IMG/VR virus record: IMGVR_UViG_3300047550_003367 | Coordinates: 1 to 21,081 of that record | DNA from: a virus | Reading direction: 5' to 3' (one strand) | DNA length: 21,081 nt | In this document: one piece after another, positions 972 to 20,065 of the stretch | Layout of the letters: each line of letters opens with the position of its first letter | Position numbering within the stretch: the stretch's first letter is position 1 | Notes under the pieces: model-generated | Databases searched by the model: none | What the model saw: the letters and a program-made list of their open reading frames with translations, nothing else | What the model was told of the DNA's origin: nothing | Translations under genes and position numbers: made by a program

Positions 972-1811
972 ATGCAGTTAGAAGTTAAAGTTGAAGATCT
1001 ACGAAAGAGCAAACTGTTCGTAGCAACACCAATGTATGGTGGTATGGCACATGGTATGTATATCAAGTCTTGCTTAGATTTGCAGGCGTTGTGCTCTCAG
1101 TATGGAATTGAGGTTCGGTTTTCGTTCATCTTCAATGAATCGTTAATCACTCGCGCAAGAAATTATCTTGTAGATGAGTTCCTTCGCGCTGAAGGCTATA
1201 CTCATATGCTTTTTATCGACGCGGATATTCATTTTGATCCACGTGATATCATCGCATGTCTTGCTCTTGACAAAGAAATTATTGGTGGACCATATCCTAA
1301 GAAGTCAATCAAATGGGGATCTGTGAAGGAAGCAGTTAAACGTCACCCTGAAATTGAACCAGGAGAAATTGAAAAGGTTGCTGGCGATTTTGTCTTCAAT
1401 CCAGTTCCTGGCACTGAGAAGTTTTCTGTCGCTGAACCAATTGAAGTGCTTGAGATTGGCACTGGTTTTATGATGATTAAACGTGAAGTGTTTGACCAAT
1501 TCAAGGAAGCCTATCCTGAATTTAGTTACCGTCCAGATCATGTTGGACAAGCAAACTTTGATGGTAAGCGATATATTCACGCATATTTTGACACCGTTAT
1601 TGATCGACGTAGAAAGGTATTGATGAATGGTGAAGAAAAAGAAGTTGGTGGATCAGATCGCTATTTGTCTGAAGACTACATGTTCTGCCAGTGGTGGAGA
1701 AATCTTGGTGGCAAAATTTGGATGTGTCCATGGATGAAAACTCATCACATCGGAACATATGCATTTACTGGTGACATGCCAGCCGTTGCAAATTACGTGG
1801 GATCTCTATAA
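972..1811 (+). CDS. GT-A fold glycosyltransferase-like protein
   Basis: A 279-residue protein. The N-terminus gives a strand and loop (LFVATPMYGG, residues 15-24), followed by the ITRARN segment (59-64). A DxD motif sits at residues 83-85 (MLFIDADIHFDP), the metal and nucleotide-sugar site of GT-A enzymes. The C-terminal part has a conserved-looking THHIG segment that could supply a metal-binding His. The order fits phage family 2-like glycosyltransferases. The acceptor is unknown; candidates are phage DNA bases, virion proteins or a lipid-linked sugar. It lies between two nucleotide-kinase-like genes and apart from the large tailoring cluster downstream, so it need not act with that cluster. 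Confidence 0.75.
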   Translation: MQLEVKVEDLRKSKLFVATPMYGGMAHGMYIKSCLDLQALCSQYGIEVRFSFIFNESLITRARNYLVDEFLRAEGYTHMLFIDADIHFDPRDIIACLALDKEIIGGPYPKKSIKWGSVKEAVKRHPEIEPGEIEKVAGDFVFNPVPGTEKFSVAEPIEVLEIGTGFMMIKREVFDQFKEAYPEFSYRPDHVGQANFDGKRYIHAYFDTVIDRRRKVLMNGEEKEVGGSDRYLSEDYMFCQWWRNLGGKIWMCPWMKTHHIGTYAFTGDMPAVANYVGSL

Positions 1812-1817
1812 TAGTAT

Positions 1818-2489
1818 ATGATTGTCGGACTCGTTGGCTTCATTGGAGCAGGGAAAGGCACAGTCGCTGATCTCTTGGTTGAGCGTCATGGCTTTATCAA
1901 AGAGAGTTATGCCAACAGCGTTAAAGATGCATGCGCAATCATCTTTGGTTGGGATCGCGCCATGCTTGAGGGTGACACTCCAGAATCTCGAGCATGGCGT
2001 GAAACAAAAGATGAATGGTGGTCAAATAAACTCAGTAAAGAGTTTTCACCAAGACTCGCATTACAACTGATGGGCACAGAGGCAGGTCGTGGAGTTTTTC
2101 ATCCTGACCTCTGGGTTCATACAGTGATGCGGCGCTGCGAACAATCCCCTGAATTAAATTATGTAATTGCTGATGTGAGATTCCCAAATGAAATTAAAGC
2201 AATCAAAGATAGCGGTGGCAAGGTTATTCGTGTTCGCCGTGGTGATGATCCTGAGTGGTATTCACTTGCTCGAGAATGTAATTTAGGTTACAAAAACCTA
2301 GATGTAATGCGCAATGCTTATCCAGAAGTGCATTATTCTGAGTGGGCATGGATTGGTAGTGACTATGACATTGTAATGGATAATAATTGTTCATTAGATG
2401 AGTTGAAGATTCGAGTTGACAAAATAGTTGATTCGATATATAATAATCGTATTGAAGCAAATGAGGTCGTTAATTATGAAACTTTCTGA
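1818..2489 (+). CDS. 1: Deoxynucleoside monophosphate kinase (T4 gp1-like)
   Basis: A 223-residue kinase with an N-terminal P-loop (GFIGAGKGT, residues 7-15). It also has the segments of the phage dNMP kinase family: ALQLMGTEAGR, HPDLW and a YVIADVRFPNE strand followed by VIRVRRGD. T4 gp1 (241 residues) phosphorylates dTMP, dGMP and hydroxymethyl-dCMP to diphosphates for the replisome; which base this enzyme prefers cannot be read here. It starts 6 bases after the glycosyltransferase stop. Its 3' end carries a consensus sigma70 promoter and overlaps the gp45 start by 14 bases, so the gp45 operon can be transcribed independently of this gene. Confidence 0.88.
   Translation: MIVGLVGFIGAGKGTVADLLVERHGFIKESYANSVKDACAIIFGWDRAMLEGDTPESRAWRETKDEWWSNKLSKEFSPRLALQLMGTEAGRGVFHPDLWVHTVMRRCEQSPELNYVIADVRFPNEIKAIKDSGGKVIRVRRGDDPEWYSLARECNLGYKNLDVMRNAYPEVHYSEWAWIGSDYDIVMDNNCSLDELKIRVDKIVDSIYNNRIEANEVVNYETF
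2416..2444 (+). promoter_or_regulatory. Consensus sigma70 promoter for the gp45 operon
   Basis: TTGACA at 2416-2421, a 17-base spacer and TATAAT at 2439-2444 match both E. coli-type hexamers perfectly at optimal spacing. The predicted start is near 2451, giving a leader of about 25 bases. A GAGG Shine-Dalgarno at 2463-2466 precedes the gp45 ATG at 2476. The promoter lies within the 3' end of the dNMP kinase gene, so it also codes for protein. In T4, gene 45 relies on other early and middle promoters; here host RNA polymerase alone should suffice. Confidence 0.75.
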
Positions 2490-3156
2490 AAATACTGTGA
2501 ATGTTCTTAAAAACTTTTCAGGCATCAATCAAAGCCTTCAGTTCAAGGCTGGTAATGTTTTGAAAACAATTTCTCCTCTTAAAACAATTTTTGTTGAGGC
2601 AACTGTAACTGAGAATTTCCCTCAAGAGTTTGCATTGTATGATCTAAACAAACTCTTGGCAAAAGTGTCTTTGTACAAGGATGCAGAATTGGCGTTTGAT
2701 TCTGATAAACTTAACATCAGCACTGAGAATAAAAAGAAGTCAGACTATATTAAGTATTGCTCACCAAAAGTGATTGTGACTCCACCTGAGAAGTCAATCA
2801 CGTTTACTGCACCTGATTGCACATTCAGCCTTTCTCATGAAGATCTAGAATGGATGCGCAAGAGTGCTGGCATTTCTGGATCACCAAACTTTGTTTTTGA
2901 AAGTGATGGTAGTGTGATTCATTTCATCGCAACTGATGTGAAGGATGATTCTGCTGATCAATCAAAGGTGGAGATTGGCACTGGTGATGGTTCGAAGTTT
3001 CGAGTTGTGATGAAGGTTGAAAACTTTAAACTTCTTGACGGTTCGTATGATGTTGCAATCGCTAAGAAAGGTCTCGCGCAGTTTAAGCATAAGACTATTC
3101 CAATTACTTACTATATCGCGATTGAAGCAGCAAACTCGACATTTGGGGATGAATAA
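2476..3156 (+). CDS. 45: DNA polymerase sliding clamp gp45
   Basis: A 226-residue protein, close to the 228 of T4 gp45. Its sequence and position (upstream of gp44, gp62 and regA) match the T4-type sliding clamp, which forms a trimeric ring that tethers gp43. In T4 it also activates late transcription by contacting gp33 and gp55. The N-terminus (MKLSENTVNVLKNF) and the beta-strand pattern are typical of the family. The start at 2476 is chosen over an upstream in-frame ATG at 2428 because GAGG lies 9 bases before it and the family N-terminus begins there. It overlaps the dNMP kinase gene by 14 bases. With two TATAAATA promoters in the window, a late-transcription role is likely conserved. Confidence 0.93.
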   Translation: MKLSENTVNVLKNFSGINQSLQFKAGNVLKTISPLKTIFVEATVTENFPQEFALYDLNKLLAKVSLYKDAELAFDSDKLNISTENKKKSDYIKYCSPKVIVTPPEKSITFTAPDCTFSLSHEDLEWMRKSAGISGSPNFVFESDGSVIHFIATDVKDDSADQSKVEIGTGDGSKFRVVMKVENFKLLDGSYDVAIAKKGLAQFKHKTIPITYYIAIEAANSTFGDE

Positions 3157-3158
3157 TC

Positions 3159-3395
3159 ATGGCAATTGATAAAGCAAAAATTCTTGGATGTCTCCAAGAA
3201 ATTTCAAACTCTCTGACTCGCATTGAAGCAGAACGTGATCTGATTCGAGAGATTCTTCAGAAAATGCAAGATGAGTGTGAGATTCCAAAGAAGTTGGGTC
3301 GAAAACTGGCGCGTGTTTACCACAAGCGTAATTATGAAGAAGAAGTTGCTGAGCAAAGCGATTTTCAATCTATTTACGAAACGGTGGCTAAATAA
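3159..3395 (+). CDS. dsbA: DsbA-like dsDNA-binding late-transcription protein
   Basis: A 78-residue protein. Its C-terminal third closely resembles T4 DsbA: a basic segment followed by LARVYHKRNYEEE and a final YETVAK, against LALYHKDNRDVFE and YDTVFSK in T4. T4 DsbA binds double-stranded DNA and was reported to enhance late transcription with gp33. The N-terminal half is a predicted amphipathic or coiled helix (EISNSLTRIEAERDLIREIL). It starts 2 bases after the gp45 stop. In T4, dsbA sits near gene 33 rather than gene 45, so its position beside the clamp is a rearrangement. The assignment rests on recalled similarity. Confidence 0.75.
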   Translation: MAIDKAKILGCLQEISNSLTRIEAERDLIREILQKMQDECEIPKKLGRKLARVYHKRNYEEEVAEQSDFQSIYETVAK

Positions 3396-6992: not shown

Positions 6993-7000
6993 TATAAATA
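6993..7000 (+). promoter_or_regulatory. T4-type late promoter for hsp20
   Basis: TATAAATA matches the T4 late promoter element exactly. It overlaps the stop region of dut. With T4 geometry (-13 to -6), transcription would start at about G7006, giving a 53-base leader for hsp20. In T4 this element is read by host RNA polymerase carrying gp55 and activated by gp33 and gp45, so hsp20 should be a late gene, unlike the nucleotide-metabolism genes around it. Confidence 0.75.
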
Positions 7001-7005
7001 GAAAT

Positions 7006-7058
7006 GGATGCCCATTTGGGGTCCATAACTATAAACTTGCTTAATAAGGAGTTACAAA
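7006..7058 (+). promoter_or_regulatory. hsp20 leader with ROSE-like RNA thermometer
   Basis: The predicted leader folds as two hairpins. The first starts at the predicted 5' end: GGAT (7006-7009) pairs with GTCC (7021-7024), G7010 bulges, and CCC (7011-7013) pairs with GGG (7018-7020). The second pairs AACTT (7034-7038) with GAGTT (7049-7053), bulges G7039, and pairs CTT (7040-7042) with AAG (7046-7048) around an AAT loop. All six bases of the Shine-Dalgarno AAGGAG (7046-7051) are then paired. The anti-Shine-Dalgarno contains TTGCT with a bulged G, matching the UYGCU signature of ROSE thermometers, which control bacterial small heat-shock genes. Seen: the pairing. Inferred: temperature control. 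Confidence 0.6.
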
Positions 7059-7502
7059 ATGACTAATATTACTACACTCGCATCCACATACGGACTCGAT
7101 CGCCTTCTACCAACAGCACTTGGTTTCGAGAATGCGTTCGCTGCTCTTGATAATGCGGCTCATCTACTTACAGCAACACAAACTGCATTTCCGCCAGTGA
7201 ACGTCATCAAGAAAGATGACTACAACTTTATTTTGGAATTAGCAGTTGCTGGCTACAAGCAAGATGAGATTGAAATCACTTCTGAGAGAAACTCTCTTAA
7301 AGTCACAGGCAAAAAAGCAGAAACAGACGAACGCAATTATCTTGTAAAGGGTATTGCTGGTCGTAAGTTCTCTCGCCAATTTGTTTTATCTGACACAGTT
7401 GTGGTTCGTGATGCGAATCTTGCTGATGGCATTCTTTCCATTGAATTGGAAAATGTCATTCCTGAAGAACAGAAACCTCGTAAGATTGAAATTAAAAAAT
7501 AA
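7059..7502 (+). CDS. hsp20: Small heat-shock protein Hsp20
   Basis: A 147-residue alpha-crystallin-type chaperone of the IbpA kind. A short N-terminal arm (residues 1-43) precedes the crystallin domain (about 44-133), which begins FPPVNVIKKDDY. The conserved strand is ADGILSIEL (122-130). The C-terminal IEI (143-145) fits the I-x-I anchor that docks between dimers. Such chaperones hold unfolding proteins in large oligomers without ATP. Hsp20 genes occur in several T4-like aquatic phages, where a role in virion assembly or in keeping infected cells alive has been suggested. It has its own late promoter and a leader that hides the Shine-Dalgarno. The stop overlaps the next ATG (TAATG). Confidence 0.93.
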   Translation: MTNITTLASTYGLDRLLPTALGFENAFAALDNAAHLLTATQTAFPPVNVIKKDDYNFILELAVAGYKQDEIEITSERNSLKVTGKKAETDERNYLVKGIAGRKFSRQFVLSDTVVVRDANLADGILSIELENVIPEEQKPRKIEIKK

Positions 7503-8107: not shown

Positions 8108-8460
8108 CTACAGAACAAATAATCTGGACGTTTTCTGTCTGGGCTTTTTTAATTGGTACATGCTATTCATTGACAGGATGGCGCAAAGTGACATCATGCT
8201 ACAAAATGTGGTTTACAAAAGAATATTGGAAACCATATAATGTCGTTGAAGCAGCAAGTTGGTTCGCCAAAGCAATCATCATTGTCCCTGGGCTTGTATT
8301 TGGAATTCAAATCTGGTGGTTGTATTTCTTCGCAGCAGCAACCAGCCTGACATTGATTTGGGCATCAAATGAGAAATTGCTTCCGACGTTGGTCGGATTC
8401 AATACAATTTGGGTTTGGTTGGCTTGCGCTGTTATCGTTCAGAATCTCGTAAGTTATTGA
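8104..8460 (+). CDS. Multi-pass membrane protein
   Basis: A 118-residue protein with three or four hydrophobic segments: about residues 5-24, 57-75 (ASWFAKAIIIVPGLVFGI), 77-91 and 97-115. It is rich in Trp. The ATG at 8104 is preceded by AAAGGAG and overlaps the dCMP deaminase stop (ATGA), so it is chosen over an in-frame upstream ATG at 8080. Its last codons (Leu-Val-Ser-Tyr-stop) lie within the first copy of a 72-bp repeat and are identical to the end of an unrelated gene at 8742-8924. This suggests that its 3' end was replaced by recombination. The function is unknown. Confidence 0.75.
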   Translation: MTTEQIIWTFSVWAFLIGTCYSLTGWRKVTSCYKMWFTKEYWKPYNVVEAASWFAKAIIIVPGLVFGIQIWWLYFFAAATSLTLIWASNEKLLPTLVGFNTIWVWLACAVIVQNLVSY

Positions 8461-8517
8461 TTTCACAAGAGTTTTTTCTATTGCGTTTTTCTTGTAATAT
8501 GCTACAATTGCTGCATG
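8446..8517 (+). repeat. 72-bp promoter cassette, copy 1
   Basis: This block aligns without gaps to 8910-8981, with 57 of 72 bases identical. The first 20 bases, covering the end of the preceding gene (CTCGTAAGTTATTGA), are identical. It includes a T-run after a short CTC/GAG stem, a -35 and -10 pair and the ATG of the following gene. It resembles the mobile promoter plus stem-loop cassettes described for T4-type early regions, but the stem here is weak. Confidence 0.8.
8481..8508 (+). promoter_or_regulatory. Early sigma70-type promoter, leaderless, copy 1
   Basis: TTGCGT at 8481-8486, a 16-base spacer and TACAAT at 8503-8508 preceded by TGC (extended -10). The predicted transcription start, 7 bases past the -10, is A8515, which is the A of the next ATG. 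No Shine-Dalgarno lies between -10 and the ATG, so the message would be leaderless. It heads the run of small early genes from 8515 on. Confidence 0.65.
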
Positions 8518-8745
8518 ATACATGAAATTGAACGCTCAGCCGCAGCGTATAGGTCGGCTACAATCACCTCAATTAAAAGCCTGAAATTCGACGCAGTTAG
8601 ACTTGGGTTTGATTGGCCAACTGACCCAGACTATGACACAGCGCCACTGAGTGAATTATCAGCATTTCAATCTGAAGTGTTAGAATACATCATGGATAAT
8701 TGGGACAATTACACAGGTCCGTATCCTGCGGAGGACGACAAGTGA
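8515..8745 (+). CDS. Small acidic hypothetical protein, leaderless start
   Basis: A 76-residue acidic protein with no membrane segment. It ends DNYTGPYPAEDDK and contains several Tyr and Asp clusters (DWPTDPDYDT). The ATG at 8515 has no Shine-Dalgarno and coincides with the predicted transcription start. No other good start lies nearby, so translation from a leaderless mRNA is likely. It overlaps the next gene by 4 bases (GTGA). Position directly behind an early promoter suggests expression at once after infection, as for host-takeover or anti-defence proteins, but no family is recognised. Confidence 0.7.
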   Translation: MIHEIERSAAAYRSATITSIKSLKFDAVRLGFDWPTDPDYDTAPLSELSAFQSEVLEYIMDNWDNYTGPYPAEDDK

Positions 8746-8924
8746 GATTCGCACACTATATCGTGTCTGGGAATGACAAGTTTGGTGCTCGCCACACACT
8801 CTGGCATGTTGGAAATTACATGTACGAAATCGAGTGCCGCAGCACAGGCAACAAGATTCGCCTCTCTGACACCACTTTCGAACAGGCAAAACGTGTGTTC
8901 GAGAGCGTGCTCGTAAGTTATTGA
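8742..8924 (+). CDS. Small hypothetical protein, GTG start
   Basis: A 60-residue protein beginning MRFAHYIVSGNDKFG. The GTG at 8742 is chosen because GGAGG at 8730-8734 lies 7 bases upstream and it overlaps the previous stop by 4 bases. The pattern of alternating hydrophobic residues (HVGNYMYEIECRSTG) suggests a small beta-sheet protein, followed by a helix (TFEQAKRVFESVLVSY). Its last codons fall in the second copy of the 72-bp repeat, so the C-terminus LVSY is the same as that of the membrane protein at 8104. The function is unknown. Confidence 0.7.
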   Translation: MRFAHYIVSGNDKFGARHTLWHVGNYMYEIECRSTGNKIRLSDTTFEQAKRVFESVLVSY

Positions 8925-8981
8925 TTTCATTAGAGTTTTTACTATTGCCTTTTTCGGTGAAAACGCTATAATTGTCTTATG
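8910..8981 (+). repeat. 72-bp promoter cassette, copy 2
   Basis: The second copy of the 8446-8517 block. The 20 bases at its start are identical, the promoter region is less so. Here the stem is slightly better: CTC, a bulged G, then TAA pair with TTA-GAG (to 8935), followed by a T-run, which could work as a weak terminator for the upstream gene. Confidence 0.8.
8945..8972 (+). promoter_or_regulatory. Early sigma70-type promoter, leaderless, copy 2
   Basis: TTGCCT at 8945-8950, a 16-base spacer and a perfect TATAAT at 8967-8972. The predicted start is A8979, the A of the next ATG, exactly the same geometry as copy 1. There is no Shine-Dalgarno before the ATG. It should fire early using host RNA polymerase and read the run of small genes from 8979 on. 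Confidence 0.7.
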
Positions 8982-9245
8982 AAATATGAAAATGTTGTGA
9001 AAATTGGTGACGTCGTCAAGTCCCTTGACTTCGTTGGTGTTAATGACTGCTACATGGTCGGTCTCGTGACTGCCGTCCTCTCTGACGGCACGTTCCGCGC
9101 CAACACGATCAAGCGTGTGTGGCAGGGCAAGGTTGACAAGAGATTCCTGTCCGACACTTTCGTCGCTCCGCTCCCTGGTAATTCTTTCTTCGATGATCTC
9201 GCTGAAGCAAAGAATGCTGAGCCTCGCGTGCAGGTGGTTGCCTAA
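8979..9245 (+). CDS. Hypothetical protein, leaderless start
   Basis: An 88-residue protein beginning MKYENVVKIGDVVKSLDF. The strand-rich N-terminal half (VVKSLDFVG, CYMVGLVTAVLSDGTFRANT) looks like a small SH3-type or KOW-like barrel, inferred from hydrophobic spacing only. The ATG coincides with the predicted transcription start and has no Shine-Dalgarno. Its DNA is richer in G and C than neighbouring genes, with many GTC, CTC and GAC codons. The stop overlaps the next ATG (TAATG). No family is recognised. Confidence 0.7.
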   Translation: MKYENVVKIGDVVKSLDFVGVNDCYMVGLVTAVLSDGTFRANTIKRVWQGKVDKRFLSDTFVAPLPGNSFFDDLAEAKNAEPRVQVVA

Positions 9246-12210: not shown

Positions 12211-12695
12211 AAGTCACGATTGGCAAGTACCCTAAAAAGGGCGAGCAAAAGATTTCAGTTCGTATTGATCCATGGGACACTTGGTCTATGGATCGTACAC
12301 TTGCGCTAATCGTCCATCCAATGCTCAAACAGTTGCTCAAGACCAATCACGGCGCACCTTGCACTGATGATGACGATGTGCCTGAGCATCTTCGATCTAC
12401 CAATGCCAAGCCAAAAAAGAATGATTGGGATACAGACTCTAATCACTTCAAGCGTTGGGACTGGATCATGAAAGAAATGATCTGGGCGTTTGGTGAACTT
12501 GTCAAAGATCGCGACCCAAACTTCTGCATCAAGAAAGGTAAATACAAATGGGTGCAGAAAGAAGGTGAAGAATGGAGCGAAATGGTAACTGTTGTTGAGC
12601 CAGTTTATGATATGGAAAAGATGAAAGCATATCATTTACGCAAGAAGAATGCTTTCCGTTTGTTTGGTAAATATTACGAAAATCTTTGGGATTGA
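12207..12695 (+). CDS. Conserved T4-like phage hypothetical protein
   Basis: A 162-residue hydrophilic protein with conserved-looking segments: VRIDPWDTWSMDRTLALIVHPML (N-terminal), HGAPCTDDDDVPEHLRS, FKRWDWIMKEMIWAF and a C-terminal AFRLFGKYYENLWD. Proteins with the IDPWDTWSMDxTLA, GAPxTDxxDVPEHLR and RWDxIxxEMIWAF segments are widespread in T4-like and other aquatic phages, from memory; I know of no function. It overlaps the upstream mini-gene by 4 bases and ends 1 base before the tailoring cluster begins, so it marks the boundary between the small early genes and that cluster. Confidence 0.78.
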   Translation: MKVTIGKYPKKGEQKISVRIDPWDTWSMDRTLALIVHPMLKQLLKTNHGAPCTDDDDVPEHLRSTNAKPKKNDWDTDSNHFKRWDWIMKEMIWAFGELVKDRDPNFCIKKGKYKWVQKEGEEWSEMVTVVEPVYDMEKMKAYHLRKKNAFRLFGKYYENLWD

Positions 12696-12696
12696 A

Positions 12697-13323
12697 ATGC
12701 TCATTGAAACACAAATATTAGAAAATTTTTTTGATGATCCAGAATCTGTAAAAAATTTTGCCATTTCTTCTAAATATTATCCATGCAATTTTTATCAATC
12801 AACATCGATTTATTCTGGATATAGATGCACAATACAAGATGAAAAAATAGAAAGTGAAATCATTTCAAAGATAAAAAAAATATTAGATAAAGATAATATA
12901 AAATTAAGTTCATGCTTTCATTTAAATACGAATACTAGTATGCTTGGCTTCCCGCATCATGATAGTCAAGATCCAAGAAGTTTTGCTGCAGTCATTTATC
13001 TAAATGAAAATGCTCCCGTAAATACAGGAACAAGTATCTTTAAGAATAAATCCACAGATTATGTGATTGAAAACTATACACATAAAATGCAAATAGTCTA
13101 TGATGTTTCTTTACCACCAAATAACTCTATAAAGCAAAAATTTGCCAAGGAAATTTTTGAGTATAAACAAAGTTTGACATTAGAAACTAAATCCGAAAAC
13201 GTATTTAATAGAATTTTCTTATATTCTTCTAAAAAATATCATTCACCAAATTTATATTTTGGCAAAAACATCCATGATGGAAGACTTACAATTGCAATAC
13301 ATGGATCAATCTATGCAAACTAA
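12697..13323 (+). CDS. Fe(II)/2-oxoglutarate oxygenase-like protein (DUF6445-like)
   Basis: A 208-residue protein with signs of the double-stranded beta-helix oxygenases. FPHHDSQD (85-92) supplies an HxD motif (His87, Asp89), YHSP (181-184) a distal His, and GRLTIAIHG (195-203) an Arg suited to binding 2-oxoglutarate. The overall order resembles DUF6445 proteins, though similarity is not strong. These enzymes hydroxylate amino acids, sugars or small molecules. The ATG at 12697 is preferred, since an upstream ATG lies inside the previous gene. The DNA is markedly A/T-rich with A-runs, unlike the gene before it, which suggests separate origin. Its end overlaps the NodS-like gene by 11 bases. 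Confidence 0.62.
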   Translation: MLIETQILENFFDDPESVKNFAISSKYYPCNFYQSTSIYSGYRCTIQDEKIESEIISKIKKILDKDNIKLSSCFHLNTNTSMLGFPHHDSQDPRSFAAVIYLNENAPVNTGTSIFKNKSTDYVIENYTHKMQIVYDVSLPPNNSIKQKFAKEIFEYKQSLTLETKSENVFNRIFLYSSKKYHSPNLYFGKNIHDGRLTIAIHGSIYAN

Positions 13324-13789
13324 AGAAGAATTAGAACAGTGGTATAAAAACCCAGATCCGTGGGCATATACAACCACGCACGACGATCAATATCGAAAAG
13401 ATAAATTATTAAATATCATAACGAAGCGTTACATCCGCGCACTAGATATTGGTTGCGGCGAAGGATTTGTGACTCGTGATCTTCCAGCAGAAGATATACA
13501 TGGTATTGAGTTATCTGATCTAGCAGCGTCTAGACTGCCATGGAACGTGAGACGAGTTCATGCTCCTGAAGGTTTATATGATCTTGTGATTACAACAGGA
13601 ACTTTGTACGAACAGTATAATCATGAACAGATTGCACAATGGATAAAAAATTGTGCATCTCGTCATGTTTTGGTTGCTGGAATCAAAGATTGGCTAAAAC
13701 CATACACCTTCGGGCATGTTATCACTCATACAGAATTTCCATACAGACAATTTATTCAATCGGTGACTTTATATGAAGTTGGCACATAA
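13313..13789 (+). CDS. NodS-like SAM methyltransferase
   Basis: A 158-residue compact methyltransferase. A short DPWAY segment (15-19) precedes motif I, ALDIGCGEGFVTRDLP (43-58), followed by the acidic strand HGIELSD. The DPW-Y start, the GCGEGxxTRDLP form and the small size are features of NodS-type enzymes. In rhizobia, NodS N-methylates the amine that NodB uncovers on the chitin oligomer. The downstream gene is NodB-like and overlaps by 17 bases, so the pair suggests the same two-step chemistry. The start could be the ATG at 13313 or at 13301; neither has a strong ribosome site. The actual substrate is unknown. Confidence 0.75.
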   Translation: MQTKEELEQWYKNPDPWAYTTTHDDQYRKDKLLNIITKRYIRALDIGCGEGFVTRDLPAEDIHGIELSDLAASRLPWNVRRVHAPEGLYDLVITTGTLYEQYNHEQIAQWIKNCASRHVLVAGIKDWLKPYTFGHVITHTEFPYRQFIQSVTLYEVGT

Positions 13790-14294
13790 TATTGGTAATA
13801 TACACCATCCAAATTATAACACTCGTGAACAGATCTTGGCTTGTAATGAGCCGATAGGTTTTGATGGTATTTACAAGAACGTCTATTACAATCAAGATGT
13901 TCTTGCAGGTAAGTCGGGTATTATGTTCGTAATGGGTGACTTTGTTGGTGGTGATAATGCATTTGATCTCCCGAACGTCCCGCGACTCGAGCAATATTGT
14001 ACATACGAAGAAGTTTGGCAAATTTGCGATAAGTATGGATTTGAAATGGGATGGCATACTTGGTCTCATCGTGATCTAACTAAATTGAATAAAGACGAAA
14101 TTATGGAAGAAGTTACGCCACCGATGGGAATGAAGATGAAATACTTTGCATATCCTTACGGCACATTCAACGATCTTGTAATTGAATGCGTAAAGGAAGC
14201 AGGATACGAAAAAGCATATTCTGTGATTCAGGGAAGTCAGAATCCGCATGATGTAGATTATAACTATAAGATCTATCGCGACTACATTAGATGA
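13773..14294 (+). CDS. NodB-like polysaccharide deacetylase (CE4), possibly divergent
   Basis: A 173-residue protein of the carbohydrate esterase 4 fold. The zinc-binding motif HTWSH is at 95-99, followed by RDLTKLNKDEI. FAYPYG (125-130) fits the R/F-x-PYG motif and is followed by a helix and GYEKAYSV. The first motif, normally TFDDG, reads GFDGIYKN (29-36) with a single Asp, so either the catalytic base or a metal ligand is missing or shifted. CE4 enzymes remove N- or O-acetyl groups from sugars in peptidoglycan, chitin or capsule. It lacks a signal peptide, so it would act in the cytoplasm, as NodB does. It overlaps the methyltransferase by 17 bases and the next gene by 4. Confidence 0.75.
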   Translation: MKLAHNIGNIHHPNYNTREQILACNEPIGFDGIYKNVYYNQDVLAGKSGIMFVMGDFVGGDNAFDLPNVPRLEQYCTYEEVWQICDKYGFEMGWHTWSHRDLTKLNKDEIMEEVTPPMGMKMKYFAYPYGTFNDLVIECVKEAGYEKAYSVIQGSQNPHDVDYNYKIYRDYIR

Positions 14295-15007
14295 AAAAAT
14301 TGTACGAAGAACTCGGTGTCATTGTAATACCAAGCATTTTTTCATCTATAGAATGTCAAGAAATAAAACAACAGGCATATTCTGTAAAAGATGAGGATAT
14401 AACAAATGCAGGATATCCTAACGTCGCCAGCGAAACAAAGTACAATAAAAAATCATTAATTTTCTTCCCAGCGTTATGTAACGAATACTTGAATTCTATA
14501 AGAATTGATAGTAGAATGGTAGAGTTAGTTCGTGAGTTTGTTGGGGATGATGTTCGACAAATAAACAATCAAATTTATTTTCGAGAACAAGGCGATCTGG
14601 ATGAATTCGCTTGGCATCAAGATACAATTTTTAGAGAGCCTCATATATTTTCCGATGACGTTGAATCAGATTACTTTCAAACAATTATTGCTGTAGACGA
14701 TATCACTGAGGAAAACGGAGCAATAGAGTTTATAGAGGGCTCACATAAAAAAATACAACTTTCAAAACCAACTGACTTGCGCGCATTTGAACGTGGAGAT
14801 CTAAAAGGAAAAAAATATACTGCCAAAAAAGGTGACGTATTGATTTGGTCAGTTAAGATTATTCACGGTAGCGAGAAGAACACTTCTAGTTCTGATCGTA
14901 TGACATATATGAATGGATTTTGTAGAACAAAAGCAGCTAAAACATACCCACATTATTTAATTGGAGGAAAGGTCGTACCAAAAATCGATCCAAAAATGAT
15001 ACCATGA
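14291..15007 (+). CDS. Phytanoyl-CoA dioxygenase (PhyH)-family oxygenase
   Basis: A 238-residue Fe(II)/2-oxoglutarate oxygenase of the PhyH family. WHQDT (108-112) gives the HxD metal motif (His109, Asp111), IIHGSEKN gives the distal His192, and the following DRMTYMNGF gives Arg203 for the co-substrate. ENGAIEFIEGSHK (141-153) is a hallmark strand of this family. Relatives hydroxylate fatty acyl chains, amino acids or sugars such as in antibiotic and surface-glycan synthesis. It overlaps the deacetylase by 4 bases (ATGA) and the following glycosyltransferase also by 4, so the three are tightly coupled. Confidence 0.85.
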   Translation: MKKLYEELGVIVIPSIFSSIECQEIKQQAYSVKDEDITNAGYPNVASETKYNKKSLIFFPALCNEYLNSIRIDSRMVELVREFVGDDVRQINNQIYFREQGDLDEFAWHQDTIFREPHIFSDDVESDYFQTIIAVDDITEENGAIEFIEGSHKKIQLSKPTDLRAFERGDLKGKKYTAKKGDVLIWSVKIIHGSEKNTSSSDRMTYMNGFCRTKAAKTYPHYLIGGKVVPKIDPKMIP

Positions 15008-15630
15008 TAACTGTTGTAATATCATCTTACAGGTATGGGCATCTTGCCGCGCATTGCATTGAAACAATTTTATCTCAGTCTACAAAACCTGAGAAAATAA
15101 TGTTTGTTGATGATGGTGTTGGTGATTGTCGACATATTCCTAATTTGTATCCTCAAGTTGAATTCTATGAAAACCCAACAAATCTTGGAACTGTTCACAA
15201 TTTTCAGAACATGCTAGGAAAAGTCACTACTGAATATTGTATGTTTATTGGAGCAGATAATTGGCTTCGATCAGATGCGATTGAAATGTTTAGTAAAGTA
15301 ATTGACATTCAGCAGCCAGATATAGTAACATATGATATGATTCTCACAGGCGAAGTGAAAGAAACAAGAGTGAAACATCACCCTGACGAAATGTGGCGAC
15401 ATCAAGGCGATTACTATTGGAGAAAGGATCATAAGCATCATGGCTCAATGCTTTATCGCACATCCTTGGCTAAATCTGTTGGCGGCTATGCTAAATATGG
15501 AAACTTCCACCAAACTCTGGAAGATTTAGGTTTATGGGGAAGAATGATCGAGGCTGGCGCCAAAGTTGCTAATGTGAATCAAGCATTTTTGTACTATCGC
15601 CATCACAAGGAAAATAATAACAAATATTGA
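15004..15630 (+). CDS. Family 2 glycosyltransferase
   Basis: A 208-residue GT-A enzyme with the family 2 pattern: VVISSYRYG near the start, FVDDGVG (34-40), ENPTNLGTVHNFQN (56-69), and FIGADNW (81-87) at the position of the DxD metal motif, here with the form GADN. LEDLGLWGRMIEAG supplies the ED acidic pair typical of catalytic bases in GT2 proteins. It is near the minimum size for the fold and has no membrane segment, so it may act on a soluble or nucleotide-linked acceptor. It overlaps the PhyH gene by 4 bases. Confidence 0.85.
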   Translation: MITVVISSYRYGHLAAHCIETILSQSTKPEKIMFVDDGVGDCRHIPNLYPQVEFYENPTNLGTVHNFQNMLGKVTTEYCMFIGADNWLRSDAIEMFSKVIDIQQPDIVTYDMILTGEVKETRVKHHPDEMWRHQGDYYWRKDHKHHGSMLYRTSLAKSVGGYAKYGNFHQTLEDLGLWGRMIEAGAKVANVNQAFLYYRHHKENNNKY

Positions 15631-15636
15631 GGTGTT

Positions 15637-16368
15637 ATGTATAACTTGATTGATTTCCGTCAATACTTTATTGACAAATATTACAAACAAGAATGGATCA
15701 ATTCTGCAAAACTAAACTTTGCGAACGCTGAACCATTTCCTCATATTGTAATCGACAACTTTCTCCCAGAAGAAGTTATGGACGCAGTTTTAGAATCATA
15801 TGACTCTTATGATTCGAGTCAATGGTTTCAATTTCAAAATGAGAACGAATTAAAACTTGCTTCGCGGCAAGAGATAATGATCCCTCAATTGGTTCGAAAT
15901 ATACTTCAAGAACTCAATTCTGGATATGTTCTTGATTGGTTAGAACATCTAACTGGAGTGCCAGGCATAGTTGCAGACACCAGATTATATGGCGGTGGAA
16001 TGCATAAAATTCAAAGTGGTGGGAAACTCGCTATTCACCAAGACTTCAACGTAGAAAATAGAACGCGACTGTATCGCCAACTCAATTTGCTTCTTTATTT
16101 AAACAAAGATTGGAAAGAAGAGTATGGTGGGCATTTAGAACTTTGGAATAGAGACAAAACCGAATGTGTTTTTAAAGTCGCTCCGATTTTCAATCGTTGC
16201 ATAATCTTTAACACTAATACTGGATATTCATGGCATGGACACCCCCATCCATTAAACACTCCAAAGGAAATCTCCAGAAAAAGTTTGGCTCTGTATTACT
16301 ACAATGTTGGTGAGGAAGCGGCAATTTTGGCTTCTATGCACGCAAGAAGCACCGTCTTTAAATCCTAA
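15637..16368 (+). CDS. Prolyl-4-hydroxylase-like Fe(II)/2-oxoglutarate oxygenase
   Basis: A 243-residue oxygenase. It starts with a PFPHIVIDNFLP segment (33-44) typical of 2OG-Fe(II) oxygenases in this group. IHQDFN (133-138) gives the HxD motif, GYSWHGHPHPL (196-206) a distal His, and SRKSLALYYY (213-222) the co-substrate Arg. YGGHLELW is also characteristic. Bacterial and phage relatives hydroxylate prolines or unknown partners and often sit by glycosyltransferases. GAGGTG precedes the ATG at 15637. It ends the first part of the cluster, before a late promoter. Confidence 0.85.
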   Translation: MYNLIDFRQYFIDKYYKQEWINSAKLNFANAEPFPHIVIDNFLPEEVMDAVLESYDSYDSSQWFQFQNENELKLASRQEIMIPQLVRNILQELNSGYVLDWLEHLTGVPGIVADTRLYGGGMHKIQSGGKLAIHQDFNVENRTRLYRQLNLLLYLNKDWKEEYGGHLELWNRDKTECVFKVAPIFNRCIIFNTNTGYSWHGHPHPLNTPKEISRKSLALYYYNVGEEAAILASMHARSTVFKS

Positions 16369-16384
16369 ATATCAGATATCGTTT

Positions 16385-16392
16385 TATAAATA
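16385..16392 (+). promoter_or_regulatory. T4-type late promoter in the tailoring cluster
   Basis: An exact TATAAATA in the 51-base gap before the FkbM gene. The predicted start is about 16398. GAGG at 16411-16414 supplies the ribosome site for the ATG at 16420. It implies that the downstream tailoring genes (FkbM to sulfotransferase and beyond) are made late, with virion proteins. Confidence 0.72.
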
Positions 16393-16419
16393 AACTAACC
16401 TATACATATAGAGGTTGAG

Positions 16420-17271
16420 ATGAAAAATATATTACCTGATGTCAAAATCTACATCAATCGCGACGACACCAAATTCGCTCTATTTGAACAAGAAGAGGTA
16501 ATCTCTGACGTCATAAGAGTTGATGGATATTGGAATCCCAAACTTCTTGATGTAGTCGAAAGAATTTTAAGTAAATCTTTTCCAGGAAATGTCGTAGATG
16601 TTGGTGCTGGAATAGGATCGTTTACTGTTCCACTAGCATCGCGCTTTACTGATAAATTTGTTTTTCATGCATTTGAACCACTTAAAATTGTTTTTATGCA
16701 ATTGGCGACAAATACATTACTTAATAATCTTGCAACAGTAAAACTTTACAACTATCCTCTCTCAAATGAAAAAAGGAGAGTGGAATATGGTATTCTAGAT
16801 GTAAGGCATAGCACAAATCACGGATCATTTTCTTTTCTTGAGAGAATAAATGATTTGAGAGGCATCCCACAAACAGAAGAAAAAGATGTTTATGAATTTA
16901 CGACTTTAGATTATTTTTCTCTTAAGAATGTTAGATTGATCAAAATTTCTGGTCAAGGAATGGATAATGAAATTCTTCAAGGTGCAAAAGAAACTATTTT
17001 AAATAATGATCACCCACCTATTCTATTTGAGTTTTGGGATAATGATTGGTATCAAGAAGAAAAAGATAAAATTGCTAAATTTTTAGAAGAAATGGGTTAC
17101 ACATTTAATACTTATGTTGATAATTATCAACTTGCGTTTAAGAATGATGCAAAATTTGACTTTTTTATGTCTGATGAACCAACTGAGATTTCTGGTGAAT
17201 ACGTTATTTCTGAAAAAGAACATGATACTGATAAAACATTAGAAGATCAAAAAGTGTATTTACCAAAATAA
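16420..17271 (+). CDS. FkbM-family methyltransferase
   Basis: A 283-residue protein. Motif I is VVDVGAGIGSFT (58-69), followed by FHAFEPL (82-88), the TTLDYF strand (161-166) and LIKISGQGMDNEILQGA (173-189), which corresponds to the IKIDVEGxExxVLxGA segment of FkbM enzymes. Here the usual Asp after IKI is Ser, a variant that could affect binding. FkbM methyltransferases O-methylate sugars or polyketides. The acidic tail after about residue 250 is extra. It is the first gene behind the late promoter and is followed 1 base later by a glycosyltransferase. Confidence 0.85.
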   Translation: MKNILPDVKIYINRDDTKFALFEQEEVISDVIRVDGYWNPKLLDVVERILSKSFPGNVVDVGAGIGSFTVPLASRFTDKFVFHAFEPLKIVFMQLATNTLLNNLATVKLYNYPLSNEKRRVEYGILDVRHSTNHGSFSFLERINDLRGIPQTEEKDVYEFTTLDYFSLKNVRLIKISGQGMDNEILQGAKETILNNDHPPILFEFWDNDWYQEEKDKIAKFLEEMGYTFNTYVDNYQLAFKNDAKFDFFMSDEPTEISGEYVISEKEHDTDKTLEDQKVYLPK

Positions 17272-17272
17272 T

Positions 17273-18037
17273 ATGAATGTTTCTGTTATTACGCCAACCA
17301 CTGGCAATCCTTATCTTGCAGAATGCATTAAATCCGTTCGAGCCCAAACTTATAAAAACATCGAGCACATTGTCGTTGTTGATGGTGAGGAAAGATGGGG
17401 TGCAACTCAAGGAATTCTTTACGACGTGCAATTTCCGCAAGGCTCAGAACGTGGAGCAAATAGCAATGAACACGTTTGTATTTTGCCATATCCCACAGGC
17501 ATCAATCGCTACAACGGTCATCGCGTCTACGGTGCTGCAACTTATTTCGCAGATGGCGATTATCATATTTGGTTAGATGATGATAACATTCTTGAGCCGA
17601 ATCACATTGAGAGTTTAGTCAAACTCGTTCAAGAAAAAAATCTTCATTGGGCTTTCTCACTTCGAAAGATCATTGACAAAGACGGCAACGTTCTTTGTTT
17701 AGATGATTGTGAGAGTCTTGGTCTTTGGCCAAGCATTTTGCATCCTGAAGATTTCTTCGTTGATGTCAACTGTTACTTTGTAAAAAAGGAAATTGCAGTT
17801 GGTATGTCACCTGTGTGGTATCGCAAGTTTAGAGAACCTGGTCAGCCAGAGATTGATCGTGCAATTGCTGGAACTCTGATGGCAAAACAAAATAATCTAA
17901 AGTTTGACTGCACACGTGATCATACGGTAAAATATAGAGTCGGAAATACTGGTCTTTCTGTACAAGCAGAGTTTTTCCTTCAGGGAAACCAAAAGATGTT
18001 AGAAAGATATAATGGAGTTCTTCCATGGAAAATTTGA
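17273..18037 (+). CDS. Family 2 glycosyltransferase
   Basis: A 254-residue GT-A enzyme. It begins VSVITPTTGNPYLAECIKSV, with IVVVDGEE (33-40) and the metal motif LDDDN (101-105) in WLDDDNILEPNHI. A later EIDRA segment could supply the acidic base. Unlike the GT2 at 15004, the donor-site loop is longer and includes HRVYGAATYFA, so the two probably transfer different sugars. Codon use is less A/T-rich than in the next gene. Its 3' end overlaps the next gene by 13 bases. Confidence 0.87.
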   Translation: MNVSVITPTTGNPYLAECIKSVRAQTYKNIEHIVVVDGEERWGATQGILYDVQFPQGSERGANSNEHVCILPYPTGINRYNGHRVYGAATYFADGDYHIWLDDDNILEPNHIESLVKLVQEKNLHWAFSLRKIIDKDGNVLCLDDCESLGLWPSILHPEDFFVDVNCYFVKKEIAVGMSPVWYRKFREPGQPEIDRAIAGTLMAKQNNLKFDCTRDHTVKYRVGNTGLSVQAEFFLQGNQKMLERYNGVLPWKI

Positions 18038-18729
18038 TAAATTCTTTCCAAGAAAAGATAGAAAATTCAATTGACAGTGCAATCCAAAATTATAATTGGA
18101 ATGGAATATCAATTTTACCAGAAAAATTACAAAGTTTAAGAGGATACTCTCCAAAAGAAACAAGAGTCTTTCTTAATAATTTAATGGATGAAAATTCTAG
18201 ATATTTAGAAATTGGATTGCATCGGGGAGCATCATTTTTTTCTGCATTATATCTCAACAATCTTAAAACTGCAATTGGTATTGATAATTTTGGTGGACCT
18301 GTTTATGATGATTTATTGAAATATGGTTTATTAGATCTTTCAGAAGAATTTGATTTGAAGTATGGCATCGATTATGACGTCATATTTGATGATTGTTATA
18401 ATTTGAAAGAAAAGGAACAAAATAAATTAAAAAAATTGAAATTTAATGTTTACTATTATGATGGTCCACACAACAAAAATGATCATATAAAATCTTTAGT
18501 AAATTATGCGCAGTATATGGATGATGTTTTTATTTTTTTAGTCAATGATTGGTTTTATCCACCAGTCAGTGAGGGAACGAAAATTGGTATCGATAAAAGT
18601 GGAGTGACAGTTTTGAAAGAATGGATATTAGGTGAATCTGAAGAGCATAAAAGTGAAGAAATTTGGAAGAATGGATTGTATGTTTCTATAGTACAAAATA
18701 AAAAGAGTGATGACCACAATCTGATTTAA
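18025..18729 (+). CDS. Class I SAM methyltransferase-like protein
   Basis: A 234-residue protein. Motif I is YLEIGLHRGAS (60-70), then IGIDNFGGP (84-92), and the YYYDGPHNKNDH segment (143-154) corresponds to FIDGDHSYE of the Methyltransf_24 group to which the gene at 5710 also belongs. FLVNDWFYPP (171-180) follows where that family has GHDY. It could O-methylate a sugar or be an inactive relative, as DGPH differs from DGDH. The DNA is very A/T-rich, like the sulfotransferase after it, so the two may have arrived together. Confidence 0.75.
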   Translation: MENLINSFQEKIENSIDSAIQNYNWNGISILPEKLQSLRGYSPKETRVFLNNLMDENSRYLEIGLHRGASFFSALYLNNLKTAIGIDNFGGPVYDDLLKYGLLDLSEEFDLKYGIDYDVIFDDCYNLKEKEQNKLKKLKFNVYYYDGPHNKNDHIKSLVNYAQYMDDVFIFLVNDWFYPPVSEGTKIGIDKSGVTVLKEWILGESEEHKSEEIWKNGLYVSIVQNKKSDDHNLI

Positions 18730-18731
18730 AT

Positions 18732-19382
18732 ATGGTTAATTGCGAAAAACCGTTTTTAATTTATGCTTTACCAAGATCCAGAAGCACTGCGATTCTTCAA
18801 GCCTCGAAAAAACCTATCATCATTTATGAACCGTTCAATCCAAATATTCGCAATTCTTCAGAAGTATCATGGTATGAATTAAAAAACCAATTAAACAATA
18901 AAGATGCATCAATAAAAATTCTATGCAGTCATTTTAAAAAATTTCATAAAGCAAAGATTTGGTATGATCATGTTCAACGAGAAAAGCGATTTAAAATCTT
19001 TGTTGTTCAAAGAGACATAAGAGAAATTTGTCATAGTTATATGATTGCGCCGTTTGTTGGTTTTGAAAAACAATATGAGTCAAGAGAAAAAGATTTAAAG
19101 GGGAAGATAGAAATTCAGATTAATGAGATTGAATTTGAAGATTTATTAACGACAACATTTCAATCGTTTTTAGATTTTTTTCCAGAATACGGAACAGTTA
19201 TAAATTGGAAAAATCTTCCAGAAGATTTTTTTGATAAAACAAAAGTGAATATTCAAGAGCAATTCTCACAAACTAAATTAGACCTTGTAAAAAACTTAGA
19301 CTCTTGTTTATTGATCGTTGAAAAAATAGTCAAACAATTTGAACCGTTGATTGATGATAAGTTGTGTAAATTAAGAGAGTGA
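18732..19382 (+). CDS. PAPS-dependent sulfotransferase-like protein
   Basis: A 216-residue protein. YALPRSRST (11-19) has the form of the 5'-phosphosulfate loop and VVQRDIREICHS (91-102) the 3'-phosphate-binding strand with its Arg and Ser, the two signatures of P-loop sulfotransferases. Between them IYEPFNPN could hold the catalytic segment. Such enzymes move sulfate from PAPS to sugars, lipids or proteins; the phage has no PAPS-making genes in this window, so host PAPS would be used. The sequence is A/T-rich. It starts 2 bases after the methyltransferase stop and overlaps the next gene's extended start. Confidence 0.78.
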   Translation: MVNCEKPFLIYALPRSRSTAILQASKKPIIIYEPFNPNIRNSSEVSWYELKNQLNNKDASIKILCSHFKKFHKAKIWYDHVQREKRFKIFVVQRDIREICHSYMIAPFVGFEKQYESREKDLKGKIEIQINEIEFEDLLTTTFQSFLDFFPEYGTVINWKNLPEDFFDKTKVNIQEQFSQTKLDLVKNLDSCLLIVEKIVKQFEPLIDDKLCKLRE

Positions 19383-19387
19383 ACATT

Positions 19388-20065
19388 ATGAATCCTTGTA
19401 TTGCCTCAATTTTTATGAAAAATATTGATCAGAACACTGTTGCACTACAACAACAGGTTGTGAAAAAATTTAATAAATCAAACATCGCACATTATCCTGT
19501 ATTAACTGAAGCAAATCCTGGATACACGATGGATAAACTTGTTGAAATGCTTGAGAAGCGAGGGCATGATGCAATTATGTTCCTTGATATTGATTGTGTT
19601 CCAGTAAATGATGTTGCGCTTGATTACTTTTTTGAACAAGCATACGCAGGCAAAGTGATCGGTGATGCTCAACGCAGCAATCATATTCAAAATGATCAAC
19701 ATGTATTCTGTGCTCCACATAATGTAACTTTTACGATTAAGAATTATCGTAAATGTGGTAACCCATCATTCTTGCCTAACCATCGAGGTGATGTTGCAGA
19801 AGAGTTGACTTTTAGAGCAAGAGAGAATAATATATCAGTAGAGATTGTAATGCCATTGCGTTACGATGCTCCACCAATTCGTATGGATTGGGAACCTAAA
19901 GATCTTCCTCCATATTGGGATCTTGCTGATGGCATGCCAAAATATGGTATTGGCACGACATTTGGAAATGATAGTGGTGATTTGTTCTGGCACAATTATC
20001 AAATTTTTCATCCAGGACAACAAGAACGCTTCTGGAAGAAGTGTGAGGAACTATTAAATGGCTAA
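19388..20065 (+). CDS. GT-A fold glycosyltransferase-like protein
   Basis: A 225-residue protein with the metal motif FLDIDCVP (65-72), placed after a helix as in GT-A enzymes. Later segments are HVFCAPHNVTF, a GDVAEELTFRA helix that could supply the acidic base, and WHNYQIFHPGQQERFW with a His that could bind metal. It fits a glycosyltransferase with an unusual C-terminal half; it may also be a DxD-containing relative without transfer activity. The ATG at 19388 is preferred to the in-frame GTG at 19379 because the GAGAG site lies at a suitable distance. It is the last enzyme of the tailoring cluster. Confidence 0.66.
   Translation: MNPCIASIFMKNIDQNTVALQQQVVKKFNKSNIAHYPVLTEANPGYTMDKLVEMLEKRGHDAIMFLDIDCVPVNDVALDYFFEQAYAGKVIGDAQRSNHIQNDQHVFCAPHNVTFTIKNYRKCGNPSFLPNHRGDVAEELTFRARENNISVEIVMPLRYDAPPIRMDWEPKDLPPYWDLADGMPKYGIGTTFGNDSGDLFWHNYQIFHPGQQERFWKKCEELLNG

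Follow-up and report, generated by a model that had tools for sequence, protein, structure and literature searches.

A probable two-hairpin ROSE-type RNA thermometer in the hsp20 leader of a T4-like phage

The leader of the small heat-shock gene hsp20 in the stretch of DNA analysed here (the window, a complete IMG/VR viral record of 21,081 bases) is very probably a two-hairpin RNA thermometer of the ROSE type. Its structure is conserved and covaries among phages, is nearly confined to heat-shock genes, and matches the Rfam family ROSE_3; a response to temperature would be expected by analogy with the homologous, experimentally tested ibpA leaders of Pseudomonas. The window comes from a T4-like phage, as judged by its encoded gene set, which includes the sliding clamp, clamp loader, RegA, dUTPase, Hsp20 and dCMP deaminase. 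The nearest match of the clamp loader (~60% identical) lies in a Synechococcus T4-like phage, and a direct search of the locus DNA against phage records returned no match, indicating a group without a close isolate. Only 66 bases separate the dUTPase stop from the hsp20 start, and they contain the promoter octamer, the predicted transcript start, both hairpins and the Shine-Dalgarno (SD) sequence. The features are as follows.

6993..7000, + strand: T4-type late promoter octamer TATAAATA, recognized by sequence, its position kept in close leaders
7002..7064, + strand: match to Rfam RF02523 (ROSE_3), full length (1-69) and covering both helices, 35.1 bits, E 2.7e-6
G7006, + strand: predicted +1, placed by T4 late promoter spacing; hairpin I starts there
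7006..7024, + strand: hairpin I, GGAUGCCCAUUUGGGGUCC, predicted by folding and stable; pairs G7006-C7024, G7007-C7023, A7008-U7022, U7009-G7021, and C7011-7013 with G7018-7020; G7010 bulged
7034..7053, + strand: hairpin II, the presumed thermosensor, AACUUGCUUAAUAAGGAGUU, predicted by folding, with UUGCU at 7037-7041 and bulged G7039; pairs A7034-U7053, A7035-U7052, C7036-G7051, U7037-A7050, U7038-G7049, C7040-G7048, U7041-A7047, U7042-A7046
7046..7051, + strand: SD sequence AAGGAG, buried in hairpin II, 7 nt from the ATG at 7059
7059..7502, + strand: hsp20, encoding an IbpA-type small heat-shock protein of 147 aa (Pfam PF00011, E 1.6e-17)

An earlier note on this DNA had described two hairpins, the first beginning at the predicted start G7006 and the second burying the SD sequence against UUGCU with a bulged G. 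Its coordinates and base pairs are correct both in the sequence and in the leader fold, where UUGCU pairs with AGGA (7047-7050). A putative upstream open reading frame at ATG7008 (MPIWGP, then stop) was dropped because its frame is lost in relatives with one extra stem base.

When the leader is folded alone, both hairpins form the minimum-energy structure from 4 to 37 C, and the predicted unpaired fraction of the SD sequence rises from 0.08 at 4 C to 0.33 at 42 C, through a gradual loosening of hairpin II, which on its own is weak (-1.8 kcal/mol at 37 C). Extending the folded RNA by ~20 nt of coding sequence makes the nearest-neighbour model favour alternative helices, which still partly occlude the SD sequence, and the hairpin II core then has a probability of 0.01-0.25. 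The leader fold shows no SD sequence open in the cold, the outcome that the earlier note had named as evidence against a thermometer; the folds with coding sequence are ambiguous on this point. Applied to an E. coli-type ibpA leader, the same calculation likewise missed the UYGCU hairpin, and its results are therefore not decisive. Because of this failure, and because the energy model omits non-canonical pairs known from ROSE elements, more weight was placed on covariation.

Because the SD arm fell out of register in a MAFFT alignment of 58 diverse leaders, a covariance model, R1, was made instead from 16 leaders whose loops are almost equal; it matches 76/80 hsp20 loci. In the R1 alignment of 74 distinct phage leaders, 94.0% of cells are paired, compared with 78.1% after shuffling, and two-sided changes number 167 cells against 54.6 in shuffles. 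The covariation value is 0.425, against 0.165 when shuffled (sd 0.009) and 0.04-0.08 when slid, and none of 500 shuffles reached the paired, two-sided or covariation values. The covariation that the earlier note had asked for in related phages is thus present, and its absence is excluded. All eight pairs of hairpin I covary (8/8, with 91.6% of cells paired). Hairpin II has 96.5% of cells paired, and its seven pairs comprise three with two-sided changes, three with one-sided changes (mostly U-G becoming C-G across from the SD sequence) and one that is invariant. Among the 76 model-aligned phage leaders the bulged G is present in all, and UYGCU with the bulged G opposite the SD sequence in 75-76. 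Since this first alignment had been fitted to the model, the count was repeated on anchored leaders, one per Hsp20 cluster at 45% identity (24 leaders), giving 95% and 94% of cells paired and 58 and 7 two-sided changes; since anchoring is biased towards paired stems, what is informative here is how varied the pair types are. Hairpin I also repeats the motif of hairpin II at 7009-7011 with 7020-7021 (pyrimidine, bulged G, C opposite GG), with no SD sequence, and the letter at its bulge is G in 69/69 aligned letters.

The element is closely tied to heat-shock genes. On 40 large phage records R1 gave exactly one match in 34 and never two per genome, nearly always immediately before hsp20, and in annotated isolates 12/12 matches end at most 6 nt from the hsp20 start codon. 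The exceptions are a weak match elsewhere in one genome (G054, E 0.004) and a strong match before dnaK. The latter lies in a 293 kb contig (L177, IMGVR_UViG_3300007513_000001), where a full two-hairpin ROSE-like leader at 1398-1454 (R1 32.8 bits) directly precedes a dnaK ORF (1455-3329) rather than a small heat-shock gene. Relatives of this DnaK (68% and 63% identity) in three other viral contigs have no such leader, so the case stands alone. A scan of IMG/VR with the pattern ACTTGCTTN{2,8}AAGGAGT, involving no protein information, placed 75 of the 120 matches listed directly before hsp20 (72 before an Hsp20 ORF and 3 before Hsp20 ORFs clipped at the locus end), compared with 0 of the 120 matches listed for the bulge-less control ACTTCTTN{2,8}AAGGAGT (Fisher p 1.5e-30 for the matches listed).

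The leader is also widespread among phages. A close set of 79 relatives with Hsp20 76-97% identical gives, with the window, 49 distinct leaders, in which ACTTGCTT...AAGGAG is invariant and changes in the hairpin I stem are compensated (GUGGA/UCCAC, GUAGA/UCUAC, GUGAGA/UCUCAU). Among leaders picked by Hsp20 homology, a hairpin pairing YGC with the SD sequence is found in 80/80 close and 61/62 distant cases, and in 11% of shuffled upstream sequences. Because motif-bearing phages were the seeds of the distant set, the isolate set is the cleanest. The S-PM2 Hsp20 as query recovered only 2 loci, and the genome scan used a three-protein Hsp20 alignment, a nine-protein version being too divergent. 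The hairpin is present before 17/19 hsp20 genes from isolate or single-cell phages, or 18/19 counting S-RSM4, which has a short spacer (GTCGCTT...AAGGAC), and in this set it stands behind late or sigma-70-like promoters; the sole gene of the 19 without it is that of Vibrio phage PWH3a-P1. Among the phages with the hairpin are Prochlorococcus and Synechococcus myoviruses, Pelagibacter phage HTVC103P, Methylophilales phage Melnitz, Agrobacterium phage Atu_ph07 and Pseudomonas phage PA5oct. In the single-cell genome of a marine alphaproteobacterium, an hsp20 gene with chromosomal-looking neighbours has a near-phage-type leader (R1 40.7 bits), suggesting that phages may have acquired the gene along with its sensor from bacteria of this kind. 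One Hsp20 group (L405-L442, e.g. L417 and L436) has a different hairpin I (e.g. CAGTAGGGCTAAATGCGTACTG), with the bulge apparently on the opposite strand, and an unchanged hairpin II. A record of Campylobacter phage A11a (L341, MG065691.1, unverified) contains E. coli-type ibpA and ibpB with a ROSE leader (ROSE_2, 100.4 bits), and looks like bacterial contamination.

The window's score is below the ROSE_3 gathering cut-off of 43 bits, as are those of most phage leaders, although two relatives exceed it (L070, 46.9 bits; L075, 44.2 bits), and the element is therefore filed as ROSE-like and near ROSE_3, not as a curated member. The ROSE (RF00435) and ROSE_2 (RF01832) models have no match in the window. 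The earlier note's term "ROSE-like" is nevertheless apt, given the UYGCU-SD pairing, the bulged G, the stable 5' hairpin and the position directly upstream of a small heat-shock gene, together with the ROSE_3 match and the covariation. Among 299 Pseudomonadota genomes, ROSE_3 scores above its cut-off in 6, and the 5 inspected cases are all upstream of a Pseudomonas-type ibpA. The Pseudomonas ibpA element has a matching architecture, in which hairpin I stays folded and only hairpin II melts, and reporters placed under its leaders are regulated about 3-8 fold from 25 to 42 C (Krajewski et al., PMC3669281). Perfect SD pairing, created by U38C and deletion of the bulged G39, locks that leader (PMC3669281). 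The phage and Pseudomonas elements share two hairpins within ~60 nt, a free start codon, control of an IbpA-type small heat-shock protein, GAUGCC...GGGUC in hairpin I, and CUYGCU...AGGAG with the bulged G in hairpin II. By contrast, the present element is phage-borne, has CUU/AAG rather than CUGA/UCAG in the upper stem, and is preceded by a phage late or sigma-70-like promoter rather than a sigma-32 promoter.

Other known systems are more distant. The ROSE and ROSE_2 elements of rhizobia and enterobacteria share UYGCU opposite the SD sequence and a small heat-shock gene; the classical type comprises three to four hairpins (PMC3669281), compared with two in the window. The phage lambda cIII leader is an RNA structure that depends on temperature and likewise belongs to a phage mRNA (PMC4166951); unlike the window, it has two alternative folds, heat closes the ribosome site, and the gene does not encode a chaperone. 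The Synechocystis hsp17 thermometer consists of one hairpin containing a 1x3 internal bulge (PMC4477652); it too acts on a small heat-shock gene, whereas Synechococcus and Prochlorococcus phages carry the proteobacterial ROSE type.

The earlier note placed the leader behind a late promoter, and this is supported for the window and its close relatives, where TATAAATA or CTAAATA is conserved in position and TATAAATA or NCTAAATA stands immediately 5' of hairpin I in 49/49 distinct close leaders; other phages have sigma-70-like boxes at this place. The 147 distinct leaders comprise 104 with TAAATA-type promoters and 25 with sigma-70-like boxes. The TAAATA-to-stem distance is mostly 3-5 nt, placing hairpin I at the extreme 5' end. 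Taken by itself, the late octamer shows no enrichment in the window (2 occurrences against 1.3 expected), and both the late timing and the start site are predictions from sequence. Because the promoter varies among phages and the leader is conserved, timing and temperature tuning look separable.

In the proposed mechanism, transcription from the phage late promoter would yield an mRNA beginning with hairpin I, a stable 5' stem-loop that may serve as folding scaffold and protect the 5' end. Hairpin II, a weak helix of UUGCU, the bulged G and the SD sequence, would exclude ribosomes at low temperature, and warming would open it gradually, allowing more Hsp20 to be made. Counting against a thermometer are the sub-threshold ROSE_3 score, the other helices favoured in folds with coding sequence, the gradual course of the predicted opening, and the fairly constant temperature at which many hosts of these phages live.

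The earlier note had also proposed a new kind of control. As a mechanism ROSE is known, and it is the phage carrier that is apparently undescribed; a search of open-access papers found none on phage ROSE elements or cyanophage thermometers. The distribution across phages, the phage promoters and the single dnaK case appear to be new. T4-like cyanophages have hsp20 among their core genes (PMC3037559), yet how it is regulated seems to have gone undescribed so far. Since nearly all of the related phage heat-shock genes covered here have this leader, temperature probably tunes a chaperone in many viruses. If the leader is thermoregulated, many abundant aquatic phages would tune a chaperone by temperature after infection, with a bearing on phage yield in warming waters, and this would explain why the leader is kept while the promoter before it is swapped. 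The range of ROSE elements is widened from proteobacterial chromosomes to viruses, including cyanobacterial viruses, and in one contig their reach extends from small heat-shock genes to dnaK.

An alternative that we regard as possible, if not the likely one, is that the leader is mainly a feedback operator, to which phage Hsp20 binds, repressing its own translation until unfolded or aggregating protein, such as an overload of late virion protein, titrates it away; temperature would then be one input only, which is compatible with a thermometer. In E. coli, Cedecea and Vibrio, IbpA acts on the ROSE 5'UTR to repress its own translation, with R93 essential and a requirement for cationic residues at R97 and K98 and an aromatic residue at Y34 (PMC10474464). 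In 145 ROSE-bearing phage Hsp20s, position 93 is R in 137 and K in 8, position 97 is R/K in 138, and position 34 is F/Y in all, and the Hsp20 of Vibrio phage PWH3a-P1, the only isolate without a ROSE leader, has a serine aligned at 93. Hsp20 has moreover been proposed to help capsid maturation in cyanophages (PMC3037559). However, most phage Hsp20s have Q/S in place of K98, which E. coli requires, and R93 may reflect ancestry alone, being common among the IbpAs of alpha- and gamma-proteobacteria. Retention of three of these positions, though mostly not of K98, makes Hsp20 feedback on its own leader a possible second input. A more tentative extension is that viruses have adopted a chaperone feedback loop of which the leader is the RNA half: Hsp20 would repress its own ROSE leader until heat or unfolded virion protein diverts it, so that the phage would sense folding stress, not just temperature, late in infection, with one large phage having placed dnaK under the same element.

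It is improbable that the hairpins merely stabilize the 5' end and fix a low rate of translation, temperature having no physiological role. The location of hairpin I at the extreme 5' end, a few nucleotides from TAAATA, and the gradual predicted melting would suit such a fixed attenuator, but it would need neither a bulged G, which is universal in the aligned leaders, nor near-restriction to heat-shock genes, and the bulge-less form is absent beside hsp20 among its listed matches. Very improbable is control of the T4 lysozyme type, in which early read-through transcripts hide the SD sequence and only late-promoter transcripts expose it: a late promoter does adjoin the sequestered SD sequence, but it lies upstream of both hairpins, so that late transcripts retain the anti-SD strand, and the leader also occurs in relatives that have sigma-70-like boxes. 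A chance hairpin in AT-rich DNA, a negligible prospect despite the weakness of hairpin II in isolation, is refuted by the covariation, as well as by the single match per genome and the enrichment before hsp20.

Elsewhere in the window, an 85-base direct repeat (79% identical, 8446-8530 and 8910-8994) precedes two small ORFs, each copy containing sigma-70-like boxes (TTGCGT/TACAAT and TTGCCT/TATAAT), and is probably a duplicated early promoter. The region 12649-20065 contains a long run of ORFs whose translations, judged by eye, resemble glycosyltransferases, methyltransferases and 2OG-dioxygenases.
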